A stretch of 64,000 bases of DNA from contig NZ_LGIT01000009.1 in NCBI RefSeq assembly GCF_001187865.1, forward strand, positions 62,001-126,000, in the 5' to 3' direction. The DNA comes from Klebsiella sp. RIT-PI-d (GTDB lineage Bacteria; Pseudomonadota; Gammaproteobacteria; Enterobacterales; Enterobacteriaceae). The notes under the pieces were generated by a model. The model did not search any database and was not told where the DNA came from. It saw nothing but the letters and a program-made list of their open reading frames with translations. Below, piece after piece: positions 35,387-44,598 of the stretch (positions are counted from its first letter, which is position 1; each line of letters starts with the position of its first letter). Made by a program: the position numbers and the translations under genes.

Positions 35387-36607
35387 ATGTTTAAATCTTT
35401 TTTCCCAAAACCGGGGCCGTTTTTTCTGTCGGCACTGCTTTGGGGGCTGGCTGCCGTTCTTTTTTGGCAGATTGAAGGGGGAGCCTGGCTGCTGCGCTTT
35501 TTTTCTGCCACCGCAGCGGCCCCCATTAGCGCAGCCAGATTCTGGTCGCCCGACTATCTGGTATTTTATGCTTATTATGCGGTTTGCGTCGCGCTGTTTG
35601 CCCTCGTCTGGCAATGTTATAGCCCGCACCGCTGGCAGCGCTGGTCCGTCTGGGGGACAGCGTTAATTATTTTTGTCACCTGGTTTCTGGTGGAAGTCGG
35701 CGTGGCCGTTAACGCCTGGTATGGTCCATTTTACGATCTTATCCAGAAAGCGCTGAGTAAGCCGAACTCAGTCAATATTGAGCAGTTTTACCACGGCATT
35801 ATGACCTTCCTGGGCATTGCGCTGATAGCGGTGGTGATCGGGGTATTAAATAATTTTTTCGTCAGCCACTATGTGTTCCGCTGGCGCAGTGCCATGAATG
35901 AGTACTACACCGAGTTCTGGCCAACGTTGCGGCATATTGAAGGTGCGGCTCAGCGTGTGCAGGAAGACACGATGCGCTTTTCATCGACGCTGGAAGATAT
36001 GGGCGTGAGTTTCCTGAATGCTATCGTCACCCTTATCGCCTTCTTACCGGTGCTGGTCGCGCTGTCGGCACATGTTCCTGATCTGCCGGTTATCGGTCAT
36101 CTGCATTATGGCCTGGTTATCGCCGGGATCGTATGGGCATTATTGGGGACCGGATTACTGGCGGTAGTGGGGATAAAACTTCCCGGACTGGAATTTAAAA
36201 ATCAGCGGGTCGAGGCAGCCTATCGTAAAGAGCTGGTCTATGGCGAAGACGATCCCAGCCGCGCTGCCCCCCCGACGCTTCGCGCGCTGTTTTCCGCAGT
36301 GCGTCACAACTATTTCCGCCTGTACTTTCACTATATGTATTTTAATATTGCGCGCATTTTGTACCTGCAGGTTGACAACGTTTTCGGCTTGTTCCTGCTG
36401 TTTCCGTCTATCGTTGCCGGTACAGTAACGCTGGGCCTGATGCGTCAGATCCTTGACGTATTTGGGCAGGTACGCGAATCCTTTCAGTATCTCATCAATT
36501 CATGGCCTACTCTGGTAGAGCTGATGTCCATTTATAAACGTCTGCGCAGTTTCGAACGCGAACTGGATCGGCCAGACGTGGAGGAGGCTGCTAACGTCTG
36601 GGTTTAA
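35387..36607 (+). CDS. sbmA: Peptide antibiotic transporter SbmA
   Basis: A 406-residue inner-membrane homodimeric proton-driven importer of microcins B17 and J25, bleomycin and proline-rich peptides. Its membrane domain resembles ABC exporters but no ATPase domain is present. Sequence marks include [20 protein letters not shown] at the N-terminus, [23 protein letters not shown] in the middle and [17 protein letters not shown] at the C-terminus. The length equals E. coli SbmA. yaiW follows after 18 bases, so the two are probably co-transcribed. Confidence 0.96.
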
Positions 36608-36625
36608 CCAAAGGGATGATGAAAC

Positions 36626-37723
36626 ATGACCGCACCACACTTTCGCTCTGCCACACTGGCCGTTTGCGCTGCGCTGATTCTGGCAGGGTGTAGCACAGAA
36701 AAAGCGCCGCTAAAAAAAGGGGAAAAGGCCGTCGACGTTGCCAGTATGGTGCGGCAAAAAATGCCTGCCAGCGTTAAAAATCGTGAGGAGTGGGCGCTTA
36801 TCATTGCCCGTACGTTTGAGAGTCAGAAGCTGGCCCCAACAAAAGAAAATGTCTGCTCAGTGCTTGCTGTGGCCCAACAGGAGTCAAACTATCAGGCTGA
36901 CCCGTCGGTGCCCGGCCTGAATAAAATTGCCTGGCAGGAGATTGAACGTCGGGCGGCAAAGCTGCATATTCCGGCTCTGCTGGTGCATACCGCGCTGAAA
37001 ATAAAATCGCCTGACGGGAAAAGTTACAGCGATCGGCTTGATTCAGTCAAAACCGAGAAGCAGCTCAGCGCTCTTTTTGATGACTTAATTAACACCGTGC
37101 CACTCGGACAGCAGCTCTTTGGCTCTTTTAATCCGGTCCATACCGGCGGACCAATGCAGGTGAGCATTGCTTTTGCCGAAGCCCATACCCGTGGTTATCC
37201 ATGGGAAATGAGCGGTACCGTGCGTCAGGAAGTGTTTACCCTTCGCGGCGGGCTGTGGTTCGGCACGTATCACCTGTTGAACTATCCGACCAGCTACTCT
37301 GCGCCGCTTTATCGCTTTGCCGATTTTAACGCCGGATGGTATGCCAGCCGCAATGCCGCATTCCAGAATGCGGTCAGCAAAGCCAGCGGCACTAAACTGG
37401 CGCTGGACGGCGATCTGATCCGCTACGACAGCCGTGAGGCGGGTAAAACGGAGCTTGCCGTAAGAGAGCTGGCCAATCAGCTTGATATGAGTGATAGCGA
37501 GATCCGCCGTCAGCTGGAAAAGGGCGATTCGCTTGATTTCGAGAAAACAGCGCTTTATAGCGGCGTGTTTAAACTGGCAGACAAGAAAAGTGGGCAGGCA
37601 TTACCGAGAGAGTTATTGCCGGGTATTCAGCTTGAAAGCCCGAAGATCACGCGCAATCTTACGACCGCATGGTTCGCAAAACGCGTCGATGATCGACGGG
37701 CCAGATGCATGGCGCAGAATTAA
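36626..37723 (+). CDS. yaiW: Outer-membrane lipoprotein YaiW
   Basis: A 365-residue lipoprotein with a clear lipobox (LAGC, Cys22). The E. coli homologue is surface-exposed in the outer membrane and helps uptake of proline-rich antimicrobial peptides together with SbmA. The body shows a DUF1615 pattern with [54 protein letters not shown] and [16 protein letters not shown]; the QQES segment recalls lytic transglycosylases. The stop overlaps the convergent yaiY stop by 4 bp. Confidence 0.94.
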
Positions 37724-38022
37724 ACATAGTGACGCCACCGCAGCAACAGGGCTACGACGCCCAGGATCATACAGCCTATCAGGAAGGGTACCAGCCCAAA
37801 GAGGGTACCCACGGCCAGCCCCATTTCAACATGTGGGCGGCCCGTATCCTGAATCTGCATTAACTGCTCGTACATTCCCGGCGCATGAACCACAAGATTA
37901 AGGATCTGCGCACCGACCCAAAAGCACAGCAGCACAAATAGCGCATAAGCAATATTCCCTGGGGTAGACCGATCCTTTTTTTTCCTGTCTGACATAGATC
38001 TGGAAAAGGTGAACTCTGACAT
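37720..38022 (-). CDS. yaiY: Inner-membrane protein YaiY
   Basis: A 100-residue protein with two hydrophobic segments ([23 protein letters not shown] and [21 protein letters not shown]). It aligns with E. coli YaiY (102 residues, DUF2755) in sequence and position. The ATG follows GGGAGG. The function is unknown; only inner-membrane location can be inferred. Confidence 0.92.
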
Positions 38023-38273
38023 ACCAACCTCCCGGACGCATTCGTTAAAACTTCATGCCCGTACTGATGCTTAGTGTGACAGGTCATTTCCGTTGTCAAT
38101 ATAAGATTCATGATAAATTCAGCGCTGGAATTCTCCTGGTTGTATAAGTTAGTGTTATGTCACAAATTATTAACTTAATTGTAACCAAGCCTCTTTTTAA
38201 GAATTTCCGTACCCGCCACAGACGACCGGATAAAAATATGCGAGGATGCTTTTTTTCTTCTGTCGGAGTTGTG

Positions 38274-38495
38274 ATGAATCTGCCCGTAAAAATCCGTCGT
38301 GACTGGCATTACTATGCGGTGGCGATTGGCCTGATCTTTATTTTAAATGGCGTTATAGGTCTATTGGGATTTGAGGCAAAGGGCTGGCAAACATATGCTG
38401 TAGGCCTGGTCACGTGGGTGATTTGCTTCTGGCTGGCAGGATTTATTATTCGCCGCCGCCCCGAAGACGAAGAGGCGGCGGACCGACCAGATTAG
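38274..38495 (+). CDS. yaiZ: Small inner-membrane protein YaiZ
   Basis: A 73-residue protein with two transmembrane helices ([21 protein letters not shown] and [19 protein letters not shown]) and an acidic tail, matching E. coli YaiZ (DUF2754). The start at 38274 follows GGAG; a longer in-frame ORF begins at 38157 but its extension is not conserved-looking. The end overlaps the convergent ddlA stop by 4 bp. The function is unknown. Confidence 0.9.
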
Positions 38496-39592
38496 TCGCT
38501 TAGGGTGCTTTTCAACTGGCTGCTGGCGCGGTAGCGCTCCAGAGCCAGTTCAATTAAACGCGTTATAAGTGCTGAGTAGCTCAAACCGCTGGCCTGCCAC
38601 AGCTTGGGATACATACTGATATTGGTGAAGCCGGGCAGGGTATTAATTTCGTTAATAATAACCTTGTTTTCTTCGGTGAGGAAAACATCTACCCGGGCCA
38701 TGCCGCTGCATCCTAGTGCCTGATAAGCCTGAATAGCGACTTTGCGGATGCGATCGTTAACTGATGCTTCAATGGCCGCAGGCACCACCACCTGTGCGCC
38801 GCCATCATCAATATATTTGGTATCGTACGCGTAAAAATCGCTGTTGAGCACGACCTCGCCGCAGGTGCTGGCTTCAGGATAATCGTTGCCCAGTACGGCG
38901 CATTCAATTTCGCGCCCCTTAATGCCCTGCTCAACAATCACTTTGCGATCGAATTCGAATGCCAGCTCGACGGCCTGCTGGTATTGCGCTTCAGTGGTGA
39001 CTTTACTGACGCCTACGGACGATCCCTGGTTCGCCGGTTTAACAAACAGCGGCAGGCCAAACTGCGCTTCAAGCCCGGCGAAGGTCGTGGCGTGGCGATT
39101 AACGTGCGTGAGAGTGACAAAAGGCGCAATCGCCAGCCCGTCATCCCGTAACAAACGCTTGGTCACGTCTTTATCCATGCAGGCTGCGGAACTGAGTACG
39201 TCAGAGCCGACAAAAGGCAGATTCGCGATCCGCAGCAGACCTTGTAAAGATCCATCTTCGCCCATCGTGCCGTGGACAATCGGGAAAATAACGTCAATAT
39301 GCGCCGACAGTTGCCCGTTAGCGATATCAATAAATTGCGCCGTCTGCTTACCGGGAATATGCGCGAGAGTCGACGTCGATGGCGCGAGTGTAATATGCGC
39401 GGGATCGTGCGCATTCAGTAAATAATGGCTTTGATCGTGAATATGCCAGCCGCCACGTTTATCAATTCCGATAAGGACGACCTCAAATTTTGATTTATCC
39501 ATTGCCTCAACGATATTTTTTGCTGATTGCAACGAGACTTCATGCTCTGCTGATTTCCCACCAAAAACGACACCTACCCGCAACTTTGCCAT
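38492..39592 (-). CDS. ddlA: D-alanine--D-alanine ligase A
   Basis: A 366-residue ATP-grasp ligase making the D-Ala-D-Ala dipeptide for peptidoglycan precursors. The N-terminal [19 protein letters not shown] is characteristic. GSSVGVSKV, the lid-region [18 protein letters not shown] and the metal-binding [21 protein letters not shown] follow. The length is as in E. coli DdlA (364). Its start faces a divergent extensin-like peptidase gene, not iraP as in E. coli. Confidence 0.96.
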
Positions 39593-39689
39593 CTCAATAT
39601 TGATCTCTGGTCAACGTAAAACACATAACATATCACGTCAAAATCAGCCCTTCTGCCATAATCTTAAGGAAATCGATAAAGGAGGTGGC

Positions 39690-40373
39690 GTGAAAGCAAA
39701 AGGTCTGATCGTCTTCGCATTGATCGCCGGGGCCGCGGGATGGGGATACCGCCACTTGCCCTCATACTATAATCCGTTTGCCCCGCTGCAATTGACCGAT
39801 CCTCCGGGACGGATTGCGCAGATGAAATTACGCCGGCTTTCAGATGCCGAATGTCAGGCACTGTTAGTACAGGCGAATCAACGCGGTCTGATCACCAGTC
39901 AGAAAGTGGCCGATAGCGCAGGAAACTGTCCATTGAACAATGTGGTGCGGGTGCGTGATTTTGGTGAGGTTAAACTCAGCAGCAGTTTTCTCGCCAGCTG
40001 CCCGCTGGCGTTAAGCAGTGCGCTATTTGTTGAGCAGCAGGCAAAGCCGCTTGCGCAGCAGTTGATCGGCAGCGCTCTCAGGCAGATCGATCACTTTGGC
40101 AGTTATGCCTGCCGAAATATTTACCATCGTGAAAATGCCCGTTTAAGTGAGCACGCTACCGCAGAAGCGCTGGACGTCAGCGGCTTTCGGTTTGCCAGCG
40201 GCCAGCGTGTAACGGTGCTAAAAGGATGGCCCAATGCACAAACGCAGCCATTCTTACGCGCGCTGCTTTCCAGTAGCTGCCATTATTACGGCAATGGACT
40301 TGGCCCTGAATATAACGCTGCCCATGCGAATCATTTTCACCTGGGAATGCGTGGTTATGGGCTGTGTCGGTAA
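39690..40373 (+). CDS. Extensin-like (LAS-superfamily) putative peptidase
   Basis: A 227-residue protein of the extensin-like C-terminal family, related to LAS metallopeptidases such as VanX/VanY and MepA. An N-terminal membrane anchor or signal (GLIVFALIAGAAGWGYRHLP) places it in the envelope. The zinc-site pattern is present: SEHATAEALDVSGF gives His and Asp, and HANHFHLGM gives the final His. Several cysteines (DAECQALL, GNCPLNN, SCPLAL, YACRN, SSCHYYG) suggest disulfides in the periplasm. The start is GTG directly after AAGGAGG. It diverges from ddlA across about 100 bp, so a role in cell-wall peptide trimming is a reasonable inference. The substrate is unproven. Confidence 0.8.
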   Translation: MKAKGLIVFALIAGAAGWGYRHLPSYYNPFAPLQLTDPPGRIAQMKLRRLSDAECQALLVQANQRGLITSQKVADSAGNCPLNNVVRVRDFGEVKLSSSFLASCPLALSSALFVEQQAKPLAQQLIGSALRQIDHFGSYACRNIYHRENARLSEHATAEALDVSGFRFASGQRVTVLKGWPNAQTQPFLRALLSSSCHYYGNGLGPEYNAAHANHFHLGMRGYGLCR

Positions 40374-40479
40374 TAAATAATAAATGAAAAAGCATAAAGC
40401 GCATCTCTGGTTCCGACAGCAGCATCGCAAGCCGATAGAATATCGTCCTTGAGTAAAAACTTAATTACGATATACGCTT

Positions 40480-41676
40480 ATGGAATCCTGGAAGGTTAAT
40501 CTTATTTCTGTCTGGTTCGGCTGCTTTTTTACCGGGCTGGCTATCAGTCAAATTTTGCCCTTTCTGCCGCTTTATGTCTCACAGCTGGGCGTGACCTCCC
40601 ATGAAGCGCTTTCTCTGTGGTCCGGGCTGACCTTCAGCGTAACGTTCCTGGTCTCGGCGATTGTTTCCCCGATGTGGGGCAGCCTCGCCGATCGTAAAGG
40701 CCGAAAGCTCATGCTGCTGCGCGCCTCTCTCGGGATGGCTATTGCCATTTTACTTCAGGCGTTCGCGACTAACGTCTGGCAGCTCTTTATTCTGCGTGCA
40801 ATTATGGGGCTGACTTCCGGTTATATTCCCAATGCGATGGCGCTGGTAGCCTCGCAGGTGCCGCGCGAACGCAGCGGCTGGGCGTTGAGCACATTATCCA
40901 CAGCACAAATCAGCGGTGTCATTGGTGGACCGCTGCTCGGCGGGTTTCTGGCGGATCACGTTGGCCTGCGGGCCGTCTTTTTTATTACCGCTATCCTGCT
41001 AACTATCAGTTTTCTGGTCACTCTTTTTCTGATTAAAGAGGGCGTCAGGCCGCAGGTGAGTAAAGCCGATCGGCTCTCAGGCAAAGCGGTGTTTGCCAGC
41101 TTGCCCTATCCGGGACTGGTGATCAGTTTATTTGTCACTACCATGGTGATTCAGCTCTGTAATGGATCGATTGGCCCCATCCTGACGCTGTTTATTAAAT
41201 CCATGTGCCCTGACAGTAATAACATCGCATTCTTAAGCGGGATGATTGCCTCCGTACCCGGCGTCTCTGCGCTAATCTCTGCGCCACGGCTCGGCAAGCT
41301 CGGCGATCGGATCGGCACCGCACGTATTCTGGTGGCGACGTTATGCTGCGCCGTGATCCTCTTTTTCGCGATGTCATTTGTTACCTCGCCGCTTCAACTG
41401 GGAATACTGCGCTTTATGCTCGGTTTCGCTGACGGCGCAATGCTGCCGGCAGTTCAGACGCTACTGCTCAAATACTGTAGCGATCGGGTCACCGGACGTA
41501 TTTTTGGTTACAACCAGTCATTTATGTACCTGGGAAATGTTGCTGGTCCGCTGATTGGCGCGTCAGTCTCCGCGGTGGCAGGGTTTCGCTGGGTATTTGT
41601 TGCCACGGCTATTGTGGTGCTGATTAACCTCTGGCAGTTGCTGATCATGCTGCGCCGTACCCGGCAAACTCACTAA
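40480..41676 (+). CDS. MFS multidrug exporter of the MdtG family
   Basis: A 398-residue, 12-helix DHA1 antiporter strongly resembling E. coli Mdt[45 protein letters not shown] (motif A), [27 protein letters not shown] and [20 protein letters not shown]. MdtG confers resistance to fosfomycin and deoxycholate in E. coli but lies elsewhere there. This copy occupies the ddlA-phoA interval, where iraP sits in E. coli, so it is probably a paralogue or a relocated gene. The ribosome-binding site is poor. Confidence 0.87.
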
Positions 41677-41683
41677 GCAACGT

Positions 41684-41698
41684 TATAGCGCCGCTATA
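41684..41698 (+). terminator. Short inverted repeat after the mdtG-like gene
   Basis: TATAGCG and CGCTATA form 7-bp arms with a single-base centre just after the stop codon. There is no T-run. It may be a weak terminator or a chance repeat. Confidence 0.3.
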
Positions 41699-41731
41699 CC
41701 CGAATTCAGGCGTTAATCATAAAAGCGCATA

Positions 41732-41763
41732 TTGTCATCGTTTCGTCATTTCAGATTTATAGA
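41732..41763 (+). promoter_or_regulatory. Pho box and -10 of phoA
   Basis: Two 7-mers 11 bases apart (TTGTCAT and TCGTCAT, 41732-41749) form a Pho box that replaces the -35 element. A -10 hexamer TATAGA follows at 41758-41763. PhoB should activate phoA from this site under phosphate limitation. Confidence 0.75.
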
Positions 41764-41802
41764 GTCTCCGTGTTTTATTTATTTCTCATGGAGACTGTAT
41801 AA

Positions 41803-43218
41803 GTGAAGCATTCCGCTATTTTTATTGCATTAATTCCGCTGTTAAGCGCCACGTTTTCATGGGCGCAAGCGCCATCGTTGCCGGTACTCGATAATCGTGG
41901 TGCAGAGGGCGATATCACGTTACCCGGCGGAGCCAGACGTCTCAGTGAAGATCAGACCGCGGCGATACGGGCATCCTTAAATAATAAACCGGCGAAAAAT
42001 ATTATTCTGCTTATTGGCGATGGAATGGGCGATTCAGAAATCACGGCAGCGCGAAATTATGCAGAAGGCGCAGGCGGTTATTTTAAAGGAATTGATGCAT
42101 TGCCATTAACCGGGCAATACACGCACTACGCGCTGGATAAAAAAACCGGCAAACCGAATTATGTCACCGATTCAGCCGCGTCGGCGACCGCATGGAGCTC
42201 CGGGGTAAAAACTTATAACGGTGCCCTGGGCGTGGATATTCACGAAAAAGATCGTCCCACCCTGCTGGAAATGGCCAAAGTTGCCGGGCTGGCAACCGGT
42301 AATGTGTCAACGGCAGAGCTGGAAGACGCCACCCCGGCGGCCATGATGTCTCATGTGACCTCACGTAAATGTTACGGCCCCAGTCTGACCACCACCCTTT
42401 GTCCCGTCAACGCGCTGGAAAAAGGGGGCAAAGGATCGATTGCCGAACAGCTGTTGAATACGCGCCCTGATGTCACCCTGGGCGGTGGGGCAACGACCTT
42501 TACCGATGTCGCCACCGCCGGAGAATGGCAGGGAAAAAGCCTGTTTGAACAGGCTCAGGTACGGGGATATCAACTGGTATTTGATGCTTCTTCTCTTGAT
42601 GCCATTACTGCCGCTAATCAACATCAACCGCTGCTGGGGTTGTTTTCCGCAGGCAACATGCCGGTTCGCTGGCTGGGGCCTAAAGCCACCCTGCATGGTA
42701 ATCTGGACCAGCCGGTAGTGACCTGCGCACCGAATCCCGAGCGCAATACCAGTTATCCAACGCTGGCTCAGATGACCAGCAAGGCTATCGAATTATTGAG
42801 CCACAATGAAAAAGGATTCTTTTTACAGGTAGAAGGCGCGTCAATTGATAAGCAGGATCATGCCGCCAATCCTTGCGGGCAAATCGGGGAAACTGTCGAT
42901 CTGGATGAGGCTGTGCAAAAGGCGCTGGAATTTGCCAAAAAAGACGGAAATACGCTGGTTATCGTCACGGCCGATCACGCTCATGCCAGCCAGATCGTCG
43001 CCACCGACACCAAAGCGCCCGGTCTTTCTCAGGCGCTGAATACCAAAGACGGCGCGGTAATGGCAATGACCTACGGCAACTCGGAAGAAGAGTCGATGGA
43101 ACACACCGGCGCGCAGCTGCGTATTGCCGCTTTTGGCCCGCACGCGGCGAATGTTGTTGGCCTGACCGATCAGACCGATCTGTTCTACACCATGAAGTCC
43201 GCGCTCGGCCTGAAATAG
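41803..43218 (+). CDS. phoA: Alkaline phosphatase
   Basis: A 471-residue periplasmic alkaline phosphatase that releases phosphate from monoesters. A signal peptide ends at SWAQA. The nucleophilic Ser lies in [20 protein letters not shown]; the metal sites include [21 protein letters not shown] and the late MEHTGAQLR. Cysteine pairs are present for disulfides. The start is GTG after GGAG, as in E. coli. psiF follows after 90 bases. Confidence 0.97.
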
Positions 43219-43308
43219 CGCGTGGCCTCATGAAATTTGTCATGGTGGGTGGTTTTTTCAGCGGCAGTGACCAGACTTAGGATGAGCAACTTACTAAAGG
43301 ACGACATA

Positions 43309-43629
43309 ATGAAAATAATATTTCTGGTTACCCTGATCTTTGGCATGGTTATTCTTTCAACGGTTGGCGCGGCTGAAAAGACACTCACGCCTCAGCAGCA
43401 ACGCATGACCACCTGTAATGAACAGGCGACGGCGAAAACGCTGAAAGGGGATGAGCGCAAAAGTTTTATGCGCGACTGCCTGAAAAACGAGAAGAATACC
43501 AACGACGGGAAAGGGCTGACGCCACAACAGTTAAAAATGCGTGATTGTAGCTCTCAGGCGACGCAACAGTCGCTCAAAGGTGAGGATCGCAGCAAATTTA
43601 TGAGCGGCTGCCTGAAAAAAACGGCGTAA
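43309..43629 (+). CDS. psiF: Phosphate starvation-inducible protein PsiF
   Basis: A 106-residue secreted protein. After a signal peptide (MKIIFLVTLIFGMVILSTVGA) it carries two PsiF repeats, each with LTPQQ, a CN/CS pair, LKG(D/E) and a final C-LK motif (MTTCNEQATAKTLKG; MRDCSSQATQQSLKG). The start at 43309 follows AAAGGA and begins the signal peptide. It lies downstream of phoA, as in E. coli, and is probably part of the Pho regulon. The function is unknown. dgcC (adrA), which follows psiF in E. coli, is absent. Confidence 0.93.
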   Translation: MKIIFLVTLIFGMVILSTVGAAEKTLTPQQQRMTTCNEQATAKTLKGDERKSFMRDCLKNEKNTNDGKGLTPQQLKMRDCSSQATQQSLKGEDRSKFMSGCLKKTA

Positions 43630-43636
43630 ACATAGC

Positions 43637-43660
43637 GGGTAAGGCCGTGCTGCCTTACCC
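43637..43660. terminator. Hairpin between psiF and proC
   Basis: GGGTAAGGC and GCCTTACCC form a perfect 9-bp stem with a 6-nt loop in the 39-bp gap between the convergent psiF and proC genes. There is no strong T-run, but the site can serve both directions. Confidence 0.55.
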
Positions 43661-43668
43661 ACTTATCC

Positions 43669-44478
43669 TCAGGTGCGGCTAAGCTGCTCAGACTTCTCCA
43701 TACAGCTTGTCATTGCTTCAATGACCGCTGCACGAAATCCTCTTTCTTCTAATACGCGAACGGCTTCAATCGTGGTGCCGCCGGGGGAGCACACCATATC
43801 TTTCAGTTCGCCCGGGTGTTTCCCGGTTTCCAGTACCATTTTCGCCGAACCCATCACCGCCTGCGCGGCAAATTTATATGCCTGCTGGCGCGGCATTCCA
43901 CCTTTAACCGCGGCGTCAGCCATCGCTTCAATAAACATAAACACATAAGCCGGTGCCGATCCGCTAACGCCGACCACCGGATGAATAATGGACTCAGCAA
44001 CCACCTCCGCCTCACCGAAACTGCGGAAAATGGCCAGCGCTTCGTCGATCTCTGCATCATTAACCAGAGCATTTGGCGTTAACGATGTCATACCCGCATT
44101 GACCAGCGAGGGGGTATTTGGCATGGCGCGAATAATTTTGCGGTCGTGACCGAGGGCCGTTGCCAGTTGTGCCAGCGTAACGCCCGCTGCAATGGAAATG
44201 ACCAACGAATCTTTGTTGAAGCTGGAGGCAATATCATTCAGCGTTTTAACGGTGATAGCCGGTTTTACCGCGCTAAATACGATGTCCGCTGCCTGGGCCA
44301 CTTCCTGTGCGCTTTCTGCGCCATGCACGCCGTACTGTTCGCGCAGGGCAGCAACGTTAGCAGGCGAAGGGGTATAGACCCAGATATGATCCGGCTGCAT
44401 CTGACCGCTGGCGATAAGCCCTCCGAGGATCGCTTTACCCATATTCCCGCAGCCGATAAACCCAATTTTTTTCTCCAT
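43669..44478 (-). CDS. proC: Pyrroline-5-carboxylate reductase
   Basis: A 269-residue NAD(P)H-dependent enzyme catalysing the last step of proline synthesis. The N-terminal dinucleotide motif is [18 protein letters not shown], and the C-terminal signature is [27 protein letters not shown]. It is nearly identical in layout to E. coli ProC. The start is the ATG at 44478 (MEKKIGF); an in-frame GTG directly before it is not needed. Confidence 0.97.
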
Positions 44479-44598
44479 CACCCGTCTCCGCGTATAATTT
44501 GTCTGGGCGATAATCTTAACGCGGATTATCCTTCAGGGCGACGCTTCCTGAGCATTACTGCCAGGCTGCGCGATGAAACAATCTGTACAGGAGACAGA

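Follow-up and report, generated by a model that had tools for sequence, protein, structure and literature searches.

A short open reading frame lies divergently from ddlA in the 64,000-nucleotide stretch of the Klebsiella sp. RIT-PI-d genome analysed here (hereafter, the window), and it encodes an extensin-like protein bearing the histidine and aspartate pattern of a zinc peptidase. The locus raises the question of what such a protein does, and whether its position next to the gene for a D-Ala-D-Ala ligase says anything about its function. The original prediction had regarded the gene as a LAS-type peptidase that replaces iraP beside ddlA and that shares with DdlA a role in wall peptide turnover.

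The extensin-like gene and its family

Sequence reading and translation established 39690-40373 on the forward strand as a real open reading frame of 227 codons with a GTG start, divergent from ddlA as originally described and separated from it by 97 bases (Table 1). The mechanical list of open reading frames places the start at TTG 39600. We prefer GTG 39690, because the congeners and other genera share this GTG in the aligned upstream regions and because it is preceded by AGGAGGT. The TGnnATAAT pattern of an extended -10-like element was recognized by eye in seven of the seven aligned upstream regions. It is absent from the output of a consensus promoter scan, which returned a single site away from the proposed -10, compared with a mean of 1.4 in shuffled sequences. 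An Rfam search of the whole window gave no matches. The gene, which is single-copy in its own genome, was found to be under purifying selection when compared with two congeners (dN 0.067-0.082, dS 1.9-2.4, omega 0.03-0.04, with dS near saturation, and undefined with the third congener). As dN is far below dS, the reading frame is not a product of chance; its omega falls within the range of the flanking genes.

Table 1. Positions, within the window, of the extensin-like gene, its parts and its neighbours.
Feature	Position	Strand	Basis or remarks
ddlA, D-Ala-D-Ala ligase, divergent neighbour of the extensin-like gene	38492-39592	-	NF002525, 665.8 bits
Extended -10-like element TGCCATAAT	39654-39662	+	TGnnATAAT, by eye
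Shine-Dalgarno-like AGGAGGT	39680-39686	+	Read in the sequence
Extensin-like (PF06904) gene, putative membrane-anchored LAS-type zinc peptidase	39690-40373	+	227 aa, GTG start; predicted from family, motifs and model
N-terminal transmembrane helix, residues 2-22	39693-39755	+	Helix in AlphaFold2 model; hydrophobic N-terminus in relatives
Extensin-like_C domain, residues 55-227	39852-40370	+	Pfam PF06904, E 2e-54
C141-R142	40110-40115	+	Invariant in 25/25; 1LBU has R138 and C142 in a comparable stretch
Predicted zinc motif S153-x-H155-x6-D162	40146-40175	+	180/180 relatives
H212-x-x-H215-x-H217	40323-40340	+	180/180 relatives; aligned with 1LBU H192/H195/H197
MFS transporter gene related to MdtG	40480-41676	+	PF07690; NF007372 540.6 bits, below cut-off 571; 106 bases downstream of the extensin-like gene
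phoA, directly after the MFS gene	41803-43218	+	In the three congeners, iraP is found between the MFS gene and psiF

The protein is a full-length Extensin-like_C protein, with 184.9 bits to PF06904 against a cut-off of 25.4 and an alignment covering positions 3-176 of the 176 in the profile. NCBIfam (0 families) and PHROGs (0 matches) returned nothing for it, sequence searches of the PDB found no relative of solved structure, and neither the Pfam M74 family (Peptidase_M74, PF03411) nor the M15 families (M15_3, M15_4 and VanY) matched it at E <= 1. With hhalign, the extensin-like family could be aligned to neither M74 nor M15_3, and M15_4 was matched only weakly (P-value 0.0015, probability 6.7). 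Judged from its sequence, the gene is an ordinary new member of the known PF06904 family, with a sound structural assignment and a predicted activity.

The expected membrane anchor is present as a helix at residues 2-22 of the structural model, and a hydrophobic segment recurs at the N-terminus in 175 of 180 relatives. Lipobox-like N-termini, a further mark of a periplasmic protein, were observed in some alphaproteobacterial relatives (11 pattern matches out of 180, some of them plainly spurious). Six cysteines, C55, C80, C104, C141, C197 and C226, are invariant across 25 diverse sequences, which agrees with the several cysteines suited to the periplasm that had been pointed out for this protein. 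Taken together with the N-terminal helix, they suggest a periplasmic location. The other residues invariant in these 25 members are P29, G137, R142, S153, H155, A160, D162, G171, P206, N209, H212, H215 and H217.

With regard to the putative active site, the hallmarks of LAS enzymes are a zinc motif H-x(3-6)-D...H and an H-x-H motif with a catalytic first histidine (excerpt of PMC4087270). Their counterparts here are H155-x6-D162...H217 and H215-x-H217, the latter with a catalytic role that is probable by analogy. S-x-H-x6-D and H-x-x-H-x-H were each found at all of the 180 loci read, which comprise 166 distinct C-terminal sequences and cover 70 of the 92 family genes, so that the His/Asp...HxH pattern underlying the original prediction holds throughout. 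Loss of the zinc ligands in close homologues, named at the outset as an observation that would speak against a peptidase, was sought and found in none of the 180.

Predicted fold and proposed activity

The AlphaFold2 model of the protein, built from 71 sequences, has a pLDDT of 93.8 and a pTM of 0.88. Foldseek yielded no match at E <= 0.001, neither against the PDB, where the top rows were mostly dsRNA-binding domains, nor against a viral fold library. A second look with VIA-align displayed 50 rows, of which 49 were LAS proteins by title, with a best Z of 8.2; a Z of about 8 is flagged as near background by the tool itself. The list is led by hedgehog N-domains (Z 8.2), followed by 1LBU (Z 6.9, 122 aligned residues, rmsd 3.6) and, in lower rows, by VanX (6.6), LdcB (6.3), Ply500 (6.2) and ChiX (5.6); VanXY, LysB4, LysECD7 and DacB, likewise LAS by title, are also included. 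A comparison of the predicted structure with VanX, VanY and MepA had been suggested at the outset. VanX and LdcB were indeed recovered, and the MepA structures 1TZP and 1U10 are absent from the 50 rows shown, which weighs neither way. Despite the near-background Z values, the LAS fold is the one that best matches the model, as the VIA list is uniform and agrees with the motifs.

A profile alignment with 1LBU places GLGPEYNAAHANHFHL over ILGPGY-PGHNDHTHV, with 1 of 400 shuffles scoring as high, and H212, H215 and H217 fall on H192, H195 and H197 of 1LBU (numbering counted from the alignment). The structural end points agree, residue 227 of the model being paired with residue 207 of 1LBU (H217 to H197) and residue 222 with residue 188 of Shh (H217 to H183, a zinc ligand of Shh according to an excerpt of PMC4102407). 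The profile alignment with MepA, matched by 2 of 150 shuffles, was dropped as support because it is out of register. The invariant motifs, the structural matches of the model and the alignment with the three histidines of 1LBU (H192/H195/H197) all argue for the LAS-type zinc peptidase originally proposed.

The best reading, and one that we hold with good confidence, is that the protein is an inner-membrane-anchored periplasmic LAS zinc peptidase acting on the peptidoglycan stem or cross-link, independently of DdlA. The N-terminal helix would tether it in the inner membrane, and the C-terminal domain would be periplasmic, stabilized by disulfides among the six invariant cysteines. By analogy with other LAS enzymes, zinc would be held by H155, D162 and H217, and the zinc-bound water would be activated by H215 with the aid of H212 and of R142, the proposed catalytic arginine; we infer both the ligand geometry and the disulfide pairs. 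The predicted target is a stem-peptide or cross-link bond of peptidoglycan, most likely one at a D-alanine, and candidate activities are those of a D-Ala-mDAP cross-link endopeptidase or of a D,D-carboxypeptidase. Regarding the exact bond cut, D-Ala-mDAP or D-Ala-D-Ala, we can offer a reasoned guess. The enzyme would be an independent wall hydrolase, working alongside MepA and the M15_3-type proteins of the same cell. Since the window's genome also encodes MepA (G000:C9:2075702) and an M15_3 protein, redundant activities may hide any phenotype.

A LAS fold by itself is not proof of catalysis, as the hedgehog domains at the head of the VIA list are known mainly as signalling proteins. By the same token, the extensin-like protein could be a catalytically inactive LAS domain that serves for binding or as a scaffold in the periplasm. 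This would be compatible with the literature listings, one of them almost entirely on plants, among which we found no published activity study of a bacterial extensin-like protein, in agreement with the description of the family as poorly studied. We nevertheless consider an inactive domain improbable, as all 180 relatives retain the zinc ligands and the histidines of HxxHxH, and R142 and N209 are invariant as well; a scaffold would be unlikely to preserve the whole set.

Distribution and gene order

A PF06904-type gene was matched in all four genomes of the genus, in 92 of the 295 family genomes and in 136 of the 398 phylum genomes searched, and in none of 14 control genomes, E. coli included. 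A megablast search of 35387-44481 against E. coli genomes gave no match either. In two family genomes, the gene is represented only by a partial match, at G031:C1:4009975-4010370 and G054:C19:14858-15163; each contains one internal TGA, and both are likely pseudogenes.

The gene, denoted ext in the gene orders below, does not replace iraP, contrary to what had been proposed. In at least 47 of the 92 family genomes with the extensin-like gene, all three congeners included, iraP occurs as a gene of its own past the MFS gene, located 1.1-2.1 kb from the extensin-like gene on the same strand, with the order ddlA-ext-MFS-iraP at the loci whose gene order was read out. Within 9 kb, the iraP count is 51 of 92 among the matches listed, four of which, at 5.3-7.8 kb, were excluded as neighbours. 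Two congeners (G002 and G003) show the order ddlA-ext-MFS-iraP-psiF-proC, and the third (G001, locus L101) has iraP at the same distance and no phoA in the block. The order in the window is ddlA-ext-MFS-phoA-psiF-proC, with iraP absent from 41677-41802. The three congeners thus keep the extensin-like gene together with iraP, and, as read from gene order, iraP has been lost from this locus in the window's genome. Alkaline phosphatase was found in one of the four genomes of the genus, the window's own, and gave no match in the three congeners. The window's genome also contains a second, weaker IraP-like match at G000:C9:1323045.

With regard to ddlA, the divergent arrangement could reflect a joint D-Ala-D-Ala module, in which DdlA makes the dipeptide and the extensin-like enzyme removes the dipeptide or its product, in a VanX/VanY-like manner or as one half of a turnover pair, with both genes controlled together through the promoter region that lies between them. 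The arrangement is found in 54 of the 92 family genomes with the extensin-like gene, among the matches listed, and is kept throughout one clade. However, among the same matches, DdlA is encoded elsewhere in the genome in 21 of the 92, no DdlA match at E <= 1e-80 is found in 14 of the 92, and DdlA occurs in 96 genomes without the extensin-like gene. Three of the 92 (G106, G031 and G054) are without a placed ddlA. The placements of both ddlA and iraP were scored from part of the listed matches, chosen mainly for genomes holding the extensin-like gene.

The history of the linkage also speaks against a module. In a tree of 76 proteins, sampled as 70 of the 92 family genes and six outgroup rows, the 45 ddlA-linked proteins make up one side of a single branch with a support of 99/99, which corresponds to one change. 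Because the linked proteins form one clade, the simplest history is a single origin of the linkage followed by inheritance. Of the 80 loci taken from named genomes, 23 show the ddlA linkage. Tenebrionibacter intestinalis (L121) has kept the block sbmA-yaiW-yaiY-ext-MFS-iraP-proC and has lost ddlA from the locus (L121:5100-6001), yet its extensin-like gene is intact; searched with the DdlA model at E <= 1e-30, this genome gives a single match, of 204 bits, under the cut-off of 457. In Citrobacter amalonaticus (L119), the extensin-like gene and iraP are kept and the MFS gene is absent. As both species retain the extensin-like gene, neither ddlA nor the MFS gene is an obligate partner.

In lineages where the gene is not linked to ddlA, the sampled neighbours are unrelated and include genes for an amino-acid permease, a LuxR regulator, RsmF, a malate/lactate dehydrogenase, elongation factor G, guanylate kinase and a RelA/SpoT protein. 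No recurring wall gene was detected by Pfam among 19 representative neighbour proteins outside the ddlA-linked clade, in a table that omits several loci where clustering missed the extensin-like gene. Moreover, DdlA is cytoplasmic, whereas the extensin-like protein seems to be periplasmic. The joint role with DdlA is therefore very hard to sustain, and the adjacency of the two genes seems to reflect an inherited gene order and not a partnership. A LAS peptidase with a substrate other than peptidoglycan, such as a protein or a secreted peptide, would fit the lack of a recurring wall gene among the sampled neighbours, but it is highly unlikely, as the bacterial and phage LAS matches with an activity in their title (VanX, VanXY, LdcB, Ply500, ChiX and 1LBU) target wall peptides or D-Ala-D-Ala.

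Two observations concern the edges of this distribution. The versions from Halotalea (Halomonadaceae; L128:5983-6678), with 57% identity, and Verticiella (L144:5992-6693), with 52%, are nearer to the enterobacterial ones than those of other listed Halomonadaceae (about 44-49%). Halotalea sits among the enterobacterial rows of the tree, with a weakly supported nearest fork, and Verticiella is outside the tree's sample; horizontal transfer is possible for both. In addition, a contig titled Chryseobacterium sp. (L111) bears an enterobacterial sbmA-ddlA-ext-proC block and probably represents contamination or a mislabelled record.

Relation to known wall peptidases

About a third of the sampled Pseudomonadota genomes carry a conserved and, by prediction, probably active periplasmic zinc peptidase. 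Wall hydrolases have been catalogued mostly in E. coli. Because E. coli is without the extensin-like gene, the extent to which wall hydrolases are redundant in Enterobacter, Klebsiella, Kosakonia, Pantoea or Pseudomonas may be under-counted. We give even chances to the broader proposal that Extensin-like_C constitutes a widespread class of HxH-type peptidoglycan peptidases, tethered to the membrane, that has gone unrecognised in Pseudomonadota. It would be an extra D,D- or L,D-hydrolase, left out of the wall hydrolase list based on E. coli since the gene is absent there. The case of ddlA also warns against inferring function from gene neighbourhood.

Among the known systems, VanX and LdcB/VanY resemble the extensin-like protein in their LAS fold (VIA Z 6.3-6.6). 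VanX-type enzymes are cytoplasmic and have an ExxH active site, features that do not describe the extensin-like protein, and a VanX-like role was rejected in view of the N-terminal membrane helix and the HxxHxH motif. LdcB differs in that a glutamate replaces the catalytic histidine of HxH (excerpt of PMC4087270). ChiX, the L-Ala-D-Glu endopeptidase of Serratia, shares the LAS fold (VIA Z 5.6) and the H-x6-D zinc motif. In contrast, its zinc site is H68-D75-H123, and the catalytic D120, three residues before the ligand H123, replaces the HxH pair (excerpt of PMC5778951).

MepA, the penicillin-insensitive murein endopeptidase of family M74 (1TZP/1U10), is alike in its motifs, H-x6-D and H-x-x-H-x-H being present in 25 of 25 M74 proteins and, as in the extensin-like protein, in the crystallised enzyme (1TZP); several conserved cysteines are a further common trait. 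Nevertheless, sequence profiles link M74 and Extensin-like_C neither in Pfam (E <= 1) nor in hhalign. Other Pseudomonadota Extensin-like_C proteins (PF06904, COG3921) belong to the same family, with about 29-89% identity, and differ in their gene neighbourhoods, some alphaproteobacterial ones being lipoprotein-like or longer. One member, Pfl01_1075 of Pseudomonas fluorescens, is listed in a table of a study on soil-activated genes (excerpt of PMC3646685).

Finally, the zinc D-Ala-D-Ala carboxypeptidase of Streptomyces albus G (1LBU) has no significant whole-sequence match to the extensin-like protein. It is a secreted Gram-positive enzyme without an N-terminal membrane helix. Even so, the two are alike in structure, with a VIA Z of 6.9 over 122 residues at 16% identity, and they have in common both S-x-H-x6-D and GPxY...H-x-x-H-x-H.
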